The translations under genes and the position numbers were made by a program. From Chitinophagaceae bacterium (GTDB lineage Bacteria; Bacteroidota; Bacteroidia; Chitinophagales; Chitinophagaceae), in assembly GCA_023251335.1 (NCBI GenBank), contig JAHEZA010000027.1, forward strand, positions 1 through 12,327: a stretch of 12,327 nucleotides of DNA, in the 5' to 3' direction. The notes under the pieces are model-generated. The model saw only the letters and a program-made list of their open reading frames with translations, searched no databases and had not been told where the DNA came from. Below are positions 10,827 to 12,327 of the stretch, piece after piece. Positions within the stretch are counted from its first letter, which is position 1, and every line of letters begins with the position of its first letter.

Positions 10827-10884
10827 TCGCTATAAATATCGTTCATGATCCAATAAGTTGTGCGAAATTAGAAAAAAGAAAAAT

Positions 10885-11304
10885 GTGGGTACGATTTCAT
10901 TTAATAATTACGAATCTTCCAGGTATTTAAGAGACAAACTTCTCTTGCGAACATTTCTTTCTTCCATTTTCGCAGAAGAGGGAGTGGATTTTAAATCGGT
11001 ATCTTATATCTTTTGTACCGATAATTATTTACTTAAACTAAACCAAGAGTATCTCAAACATGACACCCTTACTGATATTTTAACCTTTACTCTCTCAGAA
11101 ACTTCGCTTCCCATTATCTCCGAAATCTATATTAGTGTTGATAGAGTAGATGAAAATGCTAAAAAATTGAATGAGAGTTATGAAAATGAATTACATAGAG
11201 TTATGATCCACGGTATTTTACATTTATGTGGTTATGACGACCATTCAAAAAATGAAAAGGCGTTAATGCGTAGTAAAGAAAATTACTATTTGAGTAAGAT
11301 ATAA
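10885..11304 (+). CDS. ybeY: Endoribonuclease YbeY (rRNA maturation factor)
   Basis: YbeY is a zinc-dependent endoribonuclease for 16S rRNA 3' maturation and ribosome quality control. The 139-residue form contains LNQEYLKHDTLTDILTF (52-68), the family core, and RVMIHGILHLCGYDDH (105-120). Zinc ligands would be His109 and His113; the usual third His, six residues later, is Asp119, with His120 one place further on. ALMRSKE (126-132) closes the family. Start choice: no ATG is available. GTG 10885, preceded by an A-rich tract, puts the family's opening strand (TISFNN) at residue 3; an in-frame TTG at 10858 would add nine residues of basic, non-family sequence. The gene diverges from feoA and precedes mnmG, a pairing I recall from other Bacteroidota. 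The gene call is firm; the start is about 65 percent sure. Confidence 0.9.
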   Translation: MGTISFNNYESSRYLRDKLLLRTFLSSIFAEEGVDFKSVSYIFCTDNYLLKLNQEYLKHDTLTDILTFTLSETSLPIISEIYISVDRVDENAKKLNESYENELHRVMIHGILHLCGYDDHSKNEKALMRSKENYYLSKI

Positions 11305-11323: not shown

Positions 11324-11339
11324 CGTTTCACGTGAAACG
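11324..11339. other. parS-like ParB-binding site 1 (CGTTTCACGTGAAACG)
   Basis: A perfect 16-bp palindrome containing GTTTCACGTGAAAC, the core of the widely conserved bacterial parS consensus TGTTNCACGTGAAACA. Only the outermost base on each side differs. ParB binds such sites near the replication origin to segregate chromosomes. It sits 20 bases after the ybeY stop, upstream of mnmG. A hairpin role in RNA is possible, but no T-run follows. Confidence 0.8.
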
Positions 11340-11360
11340 TATTCCGGGAAGTCATTACAA

Positions 11361-11376
11361 CGTTCCACGTGAAACA
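11361..11376. other. parS-like ParB-binding site 2 (CGTTCCACGTGAAACA)
   Basis: Matches TGTTNCACGTGAAACA at every position except the first base. The wobble position N is C, so this copy is not perfectly palindromic. It starts 37 bases after site 1, roughly 3.5 helical turns, and ends 37 bases before the mnmG start. A second near-consensus copy so close makes coincidence unlikely and supports a true ParB cluster. Confidence 0.8.
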
Positions 11377-11401: not shown

Positions 11402-11409
11402 TAATTTTG
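11402..11409 (+). promoter_or_regulatory. Candidate mnmG -7 element TAATTTTG
   Basis: An exact TANNTTTG match ending 4 bases before the mnmG ATG. Transcription would then start at or beside the initiation codon, giving a leaderless message. No TTG lies 19 bases upstream, and such 8-mers arise often in AT-rich DNA, so the call is tentative. Confidence 0.3.
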
Positions 11410-11413
11410 TGAA

Positions 11414-12327
11414 ATGTTTTTAGAATATGATGTTATCGTAGTAGGCGCAGGCCACGCTGGTTGCGAAGCAGCGGCGGCCGCTGCTAATCTTGGGAGTAAA
11501 ACACTTTTGATTACAATGAACATGCAGAACATGGCTCAAATGAGTTGCAATCCTGCAATGGGCGGAATAGCCAAGGGGCAGATAATCAGAGAAATAGATG
11601 CGTTAGGCGGATACTCAGGCATAGTCTCGGACGAAACTATGATACAGTTTCGAATGCTTAATAAAAGCAAAGGTCCTGCTATGTGGAGTCCAAGGACACA
11701 AAATGATCGAGTGCTCTTTTCTTTAAAATGGCGCTCCCTCTTAGAAAAAACACCGAACCTTGATTTCTACCAGGACTCTGTTATAGGGTTAACGAAAGAA
11801 GGACATTCTATTACCGGCGTTAAAACTTCACTTGGCCACGATATTCTGGCAAAGTCCGTTATTCTGACGAATGGAACCTTCCTTAACGGAATTATTCACA
11901 TAGGTAACAAGCAAGCCAAGGGCGGAAGAGTCTCAGAAAAATCTTCTTTTGGGATAACAGAACAACTAGTTGCGTGGGGATTTGAAAGTGCCAGACTCAA
12001 AACGGGGACTCCGCCAAGAATTGATGGACGCTCTTTAGACTATTCAAAAATGGAGGAACAGAGCGGAGATAAAAAAATTACAGGCTTTTCTTATCTGGAA
12101 ACCAAAAAGCCTTCTACCCAACGATGCTGCTGGATTACATACACAAACAAAGAAGTGCATGAAATATTGAGGAGTGGGTTCAAGGAAAGTCCGATGTTCC
12201 AAGGAAGAATAAAAGGCACTGGTCCAAGATATTGCCCAAGTATAGAAGATAAAATAAATCGCTTCGCAGATAGGGACCGTCATCAGCTTTTTATAGAGCC
12301 CGAAGGTTGGGACACGATAGAAGTATA
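11414..12327 (+). CDS. mnmG: tRNA uridine-5-carboxymethylaminomethyl(34) synthesis enzyme MnmG, N-terminal half (runs off window)
   Basis: MnmG (GidA), with MnmE, uses FAD, methylene-tetrahydrofolate and glycine or ammonium to modify wobble U34 of several tRNAs. An open frame of 304 codons runs from ATG 11414 to the window edge with no stop; the family is about 620 residues, so roughly half is present. It shows the FAD motif VGAGHAGCEAA (10-20), SCNPAMGGIAKGQIIREID (44-62) with Cys45 (E. coli Cys47 region), QFRMLNKSKGPAMWSPR (78-94), TNGTFLNGIIHIG (152-164), RLKTGTPPRIDGR (194-206), and GPRYCPSIEDK (270-280) with Cys274, the counterpart of catalytic E. coli Cys277. The start MFLEYDVIVVG matches the family's beginning. 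It lies 109 bases after ybeY, behind the parS pair. mnmG is often near the replication origin in bacteria. Confidence 0.97.
   Translation, partial: MFLEYDVIVVGAGHAGCEAAAAAANLGSKTLLITMNMQNMAQMSCNPAMGGIAKGQIIREIDALGGYSGIVSDETMIQFRMLNKSKGPAMWSPRTQNDRVLFSLKWRSLLEKTPNLDFYQDSVIGLTKEGHSITGVKTSLGHDILAKSVILTNGTFLNGIIHIGNKQAKGGRVSEKSSFGITEQLVAWGFESARLKTGTPPRIDGRSLDYSKMEEQSGDKKITGFSYLETKKPSTQRCCWITYTNKEVHEILRSGFKESPMFQGRIKGTGPRYCPSIEDKINRFADRDRHQLFIEPEGWDTIEV

Follow-up and report, generated by a model that had tools for sequence, protein, structure and literature searches.

The window, i.e., the whole stretch of 12,327 nucleotides analyzed here, carries upstream of mnmG a pair of parS-type sites (Table 1), which is very probably the chromosomal centromere (parS) of this Chitinophagaceae-type bacterium. 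This assignment builds on features that can be established directly, namely the sequence of the sites, their rarity, the residues of the genome's ParB, the conservation beside mnmG and the origin position in three relatives. ParB, which is encoded together with ParA at a separate locus, would bind the pair, load as a sliding clamp and spread across the ybeY-mnmG region, mnmG included; ParA would then move the origin regions apart. For binding, loading, spreading and segregation, we extrapolate here from the ParB family to the window's organism.

The site pair and the ParB of its genome

Table 1. Features around the site pair; positions refer to the window.
Feature	Position	Strand	Remark
ybeY (rRNA maturation RNase), upstream neighbor	10858..11304	+	TIGR00043 above cut-off; start codon uncertain
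parS-type site 1, CGTTTCACGTGAAACG	11324..11339	.	perfect 16-base palindrome
Spacer separating site 1 from site 2	11340..11360	.	21 bases
parS-type site 2, CGTTCCACGTGAAACA	11361..11376	+	not a perfect palindrome
Candidate -7 promoter box TAATTTTG	11402..11409	+	4 bases 5' of the mnmG start codon
mnmG (gidA)	11414..12327	+	partial TIGR00136 match; truncated by contig end

The original prediction described two 16-mers with starts 37 bases apart, one a perfect palindrome and the other off at its first base only, and both are found accordingly. Site 1 differs from TGTTTCACGTGAAACA in both outer bases, and the first base is the sole difference between site 2 and TGTTNCACGTGAAACA. Both are located between ybeY and mnmG, in a gap of 109 bases. 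Since the contig ends within mnmG, its TIGR00136 match stays below the cut-off. For the product of this gene, the 80 best named matches come mostly from Chitinophagaceae, the closest at 84%.

When allowing for up to three mismatches, the window holds two matches compared to 0.08 expected, and none of 200 shuffles reaches this number. We also searched the draft genome of the window (3.40 Mb, 671 contigs, 85.8% complete) for GTTNCACGTGNAAC. The pair provides the only two matches, and the reversed-pattern control gives none in the same draft. The copies are not scattered, and the original prediction saw no other palindrome of this kind in the window. Given the completeness of 85.8% and the contig end inside mnmG, a further site downstream of mnmG is possible. 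Around the pair, a sigma-70 scan yields one promoter-like match on the minus strand (0.9 in shuffles) and a terminator scan none; Rfam (13 sources) and ARAGORN (15 loci) show no matches.

ParB, on which the prediction depends, is present with ParA adjacent and with parS-type contact residues. ParB_N has a single match in the window's genome; ParB is a 306-residue open frame, directly preceded by ParA, on a contig (C366) other than that of the window. It matches PF02195, TIGR00180 and solved ParB/Spo0J/Noc chains (PDB sequence search, NCBIfam). In Caulobacter numbering, which we transferred ourselves via the helix-turn-helix match to the residue numbers in PMC7383237, its contact residues are Q162, G170, K171, R173, N178, G201 and R204, with E at 172, Y at 179 and K at 184. 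R173 and G201 are reported as conserved in ParB orthologues (excerpts of PMC7383237). Within the family, ParB is detected in 142/147 genomes and in all 129 genomes of good quality.

The locus thus resembles the Spo0J/ParB-type parS of Bacillus subtilis and Caulobacter (consensus TGTTTCACGTGAAACA) in its palindrome with the GTT-CAC-GTG-AAC core, in its few copies that cluster, as in relatives, near the origin (3/3 single-contig relatives sampled), and in the ParA and ParB of the genome. It differs in the outer bases of site 1 (C and G), in the often just two sites, and in a cluster that is located at mnmG and away from parB and dnaA in 11 single-contig relatives. parS sites were reportedly surveyed by Livny et al. 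in 2007.

Conservation beside mnmG and position at the origin

The expected conservation near mnmG holds in the family as well as in the class. GTTNCACGTGAAAC is present in 78/147 family genomes, compared to 8/147 for the reversed control (manual count). Among the matches listed, which cover 60 of the 78 genomes, 113/116 sites and 59/60 genomes have their location within 3.5 kb of the mnmG start. We also assessed the mnmG neighborhoods of every family genome with an MnmG match. These 138 stretches cover about 3.5 kb before and 2.3 kb after the mnmG start and are shorter at contig ends, with less than 1 kb of upstream sequence in seven cases (G033, G048, G049, G053, G129, G137, G142). Strict sites (GTTYCACGTGRAAC) are found in 101/138 neighborhoods, in total 251 sites in 766 kb compared to none in 1.2 Mb of control stretches drawn from three family members. 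Exactly two strict sites are observed in 52/138 neighborhoods. The window's distance of 37 falls among spacings of 36-49 bases, which account for 27/150 neighboring pairs. A congener (G045, L027) carries the identical two site sequences only 14 bases apart, i.e., overlapping and without the window's spacer; therefore, the sites are kept but not their distance.

No strict site is found in 37/138 family neighborhoods. For 34 of these 37 genomes, a whole-genome search gives no strict site anywhere, and all 34 except G142 show a ParB match. One-mismatch sites occur in 21/37 of the neighborhoods without strict sites (33 in total, all within the ybeY-mnmG gap) and are absent from the 1.2-Mb control. 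One genome (G090) lacks a strict site at mnmG and has one on another contig.

To cover the class, we drew 40 genomes from 39 families, 38 of them outside Chitinophagaceae. Strict sites are present in 36/38 of the latter, exactly two in 26/38. For 27 of the 32 class genomes with sites listed, the distance from mnmG to a site is at most 4 kb; for the other five, the sites are 43 kb away in one and on another contig in three, and one genome has no MnmG match. Local arrangements were tallied manually for loci of about 1.5 kb on each side of the match, which could be obtained for 30/39 MnmG matches of the class and 30/46 of the phylum. The 28 class loci outside the family show sites on both sides of mnmG (9), only after it (7), only before it (6) or none (6). 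The phylum draw adds 23 loci outside the family: a strict site is present in 20, and in 12 of these solely downstream of the mnmG start.

Several relatives show peculiar arrangements. A strict parS is located inside mnmG near codon 128 in 24/138 family genomes, e.g., L053 (G020), L064 (G032) and L109 (G082), and the seven we read are in frame as V-S/P-R-G/E-T. ybeY is undetected upstream in the fetched stretches of all 24, with G033 having no upstream sequence. A further mnmG-internal site is found near codons 533-540 in G032, G082 and G088. In many relatives, e.g., G028, G072, G083, G098 and G123, a gene is placed between two parS-type sites of the ybeY-mnmG gap, and likewise in G007 and G107 between sites with one mismatch. 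Here, a parS-type site encodes the first residues of the gap gene (ATG TTT CAC GTG AAA, i.e., M-F-H-V-K). About 12 ORFs have F-H-V-K/E at or close to their start, and a CAP/SCP domain is present in the single product we tested, that of G123. Compared to the usual two, nine strict sites each are found upstream of mnmG in three family genomes, namely at G114:C1:7063446-7065245, G015:C5:355352-356749 and G003:C4 near 314482. The class relative G176 has 12 strict sites (C24:13203-13809 and C40:54061-54173), seven of which follow at intervals of 98-99 bases as a tandem centromere-like array.

To relate the locus to the origin, we used family genomes consisting of a single contig. In 11 such genomes (treated as circles), mnmG is separated from dnaA by 429 kb or more and from parB by 724 kb or more. 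For three of them (G113, G022, G018), we sampled the GC skew in 20 stretches of 20 kb each. The switch from negative to positive skew falls in all three into the interval with mnmG and parS, with dnaA and parB outside; the intervals are 142-245 kb wide, and the samples are noisy, i.e., the first positive value in G022 is +0.008 and two samples in the positive arc of G018 are slightly negative. DnaA boxes (TTATCCACA, one mismatch) are few and unconserved in the ybeY-mnmG gaps, and we therefore make no oriC call. In Chitinophagaceae, the parS cluster stays at mnmG and the origin, with dnaA and parB located elsewhere. The predicted origin proximity agrees with a locus at the skew origin and not the terminus in the three relatives, from which we infer it for the 12-kb contig of the window. 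In the window's own genome, parA-parB (L032, G000:C366) precedes what by eye are a membrane-protein-like gene and a dapB-like start, and the surrounding 3.3-kb stretch shows no strict parS.

This picture agrees with published observations. In excerpts of PMC10197239, parS clusters mark the origin of gut Bacteroidetes (B. caecimuris, M. intestinale), as is the case here, and dnaA does not always do so. The main text of that study does not mention mnmG or gidA; our analysis names the gene that anchors the cluster across families. According to an excerpt of PMC2099444, gidA (mnmG) belongs to the genes often found near the origin. Rare sites, ParA and ParB in the genome, the conserved link to mnmG and the origin position in relatives together bear out the centromere-like locus of the original prediction.

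Alternatively, the palindromes could be operators of a transcription factor that controls mnmG rather than a centromere, which we regard as very unlikely. The pair is indeed placed just upstream of a promoter-like box: TAATTTTG presumably represents the Bacteroidota -7 box TAnnTTTG, site 2 ends 25 bases before it, and a TAnnTTTG is found within 60 bases of mnmG in 117/135 family neighborhoods with enough upstream sequence. However, the distance from the box to its nearest site varies in relatives between 21 and 1965 bases, and this speaks against an operator in a fixed place. Furthermore, 27/251 family sites are located within mnmG (24 genomes with one near codon 128), sites of other families are often found just past the mnmG stop, and the relatives' sites cluster at one place, which coincides with the skew origin in the three genomes sampled. 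Given the variable distance and the sites inside mnmG, we take regulation of mnmG to be at most a side effect; the predicted influence of ParB on mnmG transcription is possible. Binding by a Noc-type nucleoid occlusion protein is extremely unlikely: a search of this ParB with the Noc model gives a score of 233.8, below the cut-off of 315, its residues 173/201 are R/G as in ParB instead of the Q/R given for Noc in excerpts of PMC7383237, and it is the sole ParB_N match. Chance palindromes without function, for which only the shortness of the sites would speak, can be dismissed given their conservation, the excess in the window and the 251 family sites compared to none in the control.

Composite sites and an HNH-like gene in relatives

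The pair of the window is well supported as parS and in no way unusual; what surprises is found in relatives at the same locus. At some of their mnmG loci, a composite of half a parS and GTTTC-N5-GAAAC takes the place of canonical parS. We wrote the pattern GTTYCAC-N6-CW-GTTTC-N5-GAAAC from gap sequences without strict sites and tested it on the 147 family genomes and the 80 named loci (G065 and G066 were not used for writing it). In the family, 19 matches are found in 11 genomes, with one to three each including overlapping inverted copies, compared to none for the reversed pattern. All 19 are inside the ybeY-mnmG gap, and all 11 genomes belong to the 34 without strict parS genome-wide; G065 additionally has a one-mismatch site. 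Among the 80 named loci, 11 of which duplicate family loci (two with composite), the composite is present in 15/26 without and 0/54 with a strict parS. Some composites form inverted repeats, nearly perfect and about 20 bases long, around a 5-base loop and look as if a parS had been opened at its center; others keep one parS half. The intact half is partly circular, since the pattern demands an intact GTTYCAC half.

A ParB of altered specificity in composite carriers was considered and set aside: by inspection, the contact residues are unchanged in 8/11 carriers and changed in three (one each in G034 and G066, two in G091). Elsewhere, changes are seen in 1/8 canonical genomes (G031), 0/9 genomes labelled one-mismatch (among them G040, which has two mismatches) and 0/3 half-site genomes. 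Given the contacts unchanged in most carriers, the composite probably still serves ParB.

The composite is adjoined by a gene of about 205 codons. Searched independently by tblastn, this gene is found in 26/273 loci, every one of which matches the composite pattern (26/26) and none of which has a canonical parS (0/26); the remaining loci of the 273 carry neither gene nor composite. After deduplication to 258 mnmG loci, 24 show gene and composite without parS, 191 only parS and 43 none of these, and neither gene nor composite occurs among the other 234 loci; a Fisher's test on the 258 loci ignores relatedness. The composite is located at or just upstream of the gene and in the same orientation in 11/11 family carriers, including two with reversed gene (gene starts were partly extrapolated for this comparison). 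All 24 copies keep an open frame of 197 residues or more. GTTCCACGARTCACA-form sites without the gene are present in three genomes and fit either past carriage or drift.

The distribution of the gene is patchy. On a quick MnmG tree (134/138 rows), we count nine changes of the carrier label, at least six of them forced, and 22/500 shuffles give values as low. The carriers are scattered on this tree, such that a single clade of composite carriers is unsupported. Six genera include a carrier and are represented by two sampled members; in five of them, the gene is absent from the second member (manual tally). Identities of the gene product and of MnmG correlate with a Mantel r of 0.57, and their nearest neighbors agree in 7/24 cases.

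Profile libraries provide no family name for the protein. It has 2378 homologues at E≤1e-3, and the 120 listed ones show no Pfam domain, with those named being hypothetical. The product carries the motif WQF[DE]H[IV].P and, after it, an invariant N; some copies vary, and the residue before the invariant His is non-acidic in 4/24 copies. With tblastn, phage proteins annotated as HNH endonuclease or endonuclease VII are matched at E-values of 5e-5 to 4e-3, and the best phage match (5e-9) is a record without annotation. Matches to plasmids and phages are weak and partial, none covering 80% of the query, and we found no viral contigs that encode the protein. A structure model from 103 sequences reaches a pLDDT of 86.4, compared to 66.7 for an earlier one from 12 sequences. 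A Foldseek search with the confident model gives 19 viral models at E-values up to 0.001, with named endonuclease/HNH entries at 5e-7, 5e-5, 8e-5 and 4e-4; its PDB matches are weak. Motif, phage matches and viral models together lead us to call the protein HNH-like. HNH-like core and patchy hosts are shared with free-standing HNH/Endo VII homing endonucleases (cf. excerpts on F-CphI, PMC6083498). The relatives' gene differs by being lodged at a bacterial centromere and by the 4/24 copies without an acidic residue before the His, and the likeness is one of sequence, predicted fold and distribution.

The association of gene and composite with the exclusion of canonical parS is observed; two mechanisms behind it can be considered. 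First, the ybeY-mnmG spacer with composite and gene might be exchanged as one block, where the composite would be a variant parS or an operator of the gene and the protein would not cut parS. For this reading, we see about equal grounds for belief and disbelief. It is in accordance with the constant arrangement of composite and gene in 11/11 family carriers, the acidic residue missing in 4/24 copies and the correlated identities of the two proteins, and it would entail the parS exclusion, as the family's usual sites are mostly in the replaced spacer. On the other hand, the carriers are scattered on the MnmG tree with at least six forced label changes, nearest neighbors of the two proteins agree in only 7/24 cases, and the decay of one parS half beside the kept other half is left unexplained.

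Second, and as a tentative proposal that may well turn out wrong, an undescribed family of centromere-lodged HNH-type nucleases of Chitinophagaceae would cut canonical parS. Cutting would select for altered parS, such that composites with one intact ParB half-site and GTTTC-N5-GAAAC at a fixed distance after it take over, which would resist the nuclease yet still load ParB. The gene could be a selfish element that parasitizes the centromere or a domesticated partner of it. The model here is that of free-standing homing endonucleases, whose genes are found next to targets immune to them. The nuclease reading is favored by the strict exclusion, the decay of one half, the patchy distribution and the conserved core. 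It is weakened by the 4/24 copies with a non-acidic residue before the His, by the identities that correlate with those of MnmG (though nearest neighbors agree in only 7/24 cases), by block exchange as another possible source of the exclusion, and by a pattern that partly presupposes the kept half. Within it, the window's canonical pair would represent a locus free of invasion.

Nine genomes (G004, G007, G010, G040, G064, G084, G107, G118, G141) have ParB and lack strict parS genome-wide. In 7/9 of them, a one-mismatch pair is found at the usual place, and their sites are possibly immune or drifting alleles.

Meaning for Bacteroidota centromeres

The general anchoring of parS to mnmG across these families is new to us: within the open-licence literature, we found no paper that joins parS sites, mnmG and ParB. 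For nuclease genes residing at bacterial centromeres, the same literature gave no report; the relatives' gene is possibly a first case. In Bacteroidota drafts, dnaA and parAB may point to the wrong place, and mnmG can serve as a gene anchor for finding the centromere and the origin. Furthermore, the occupancy of a conserved tRNA-modification gene by ParB becomes testable across a large phylum. Finally, the composites with their HNH-like gene are natural experiments on the degree of change that a centromere site tolerates without losing its function.
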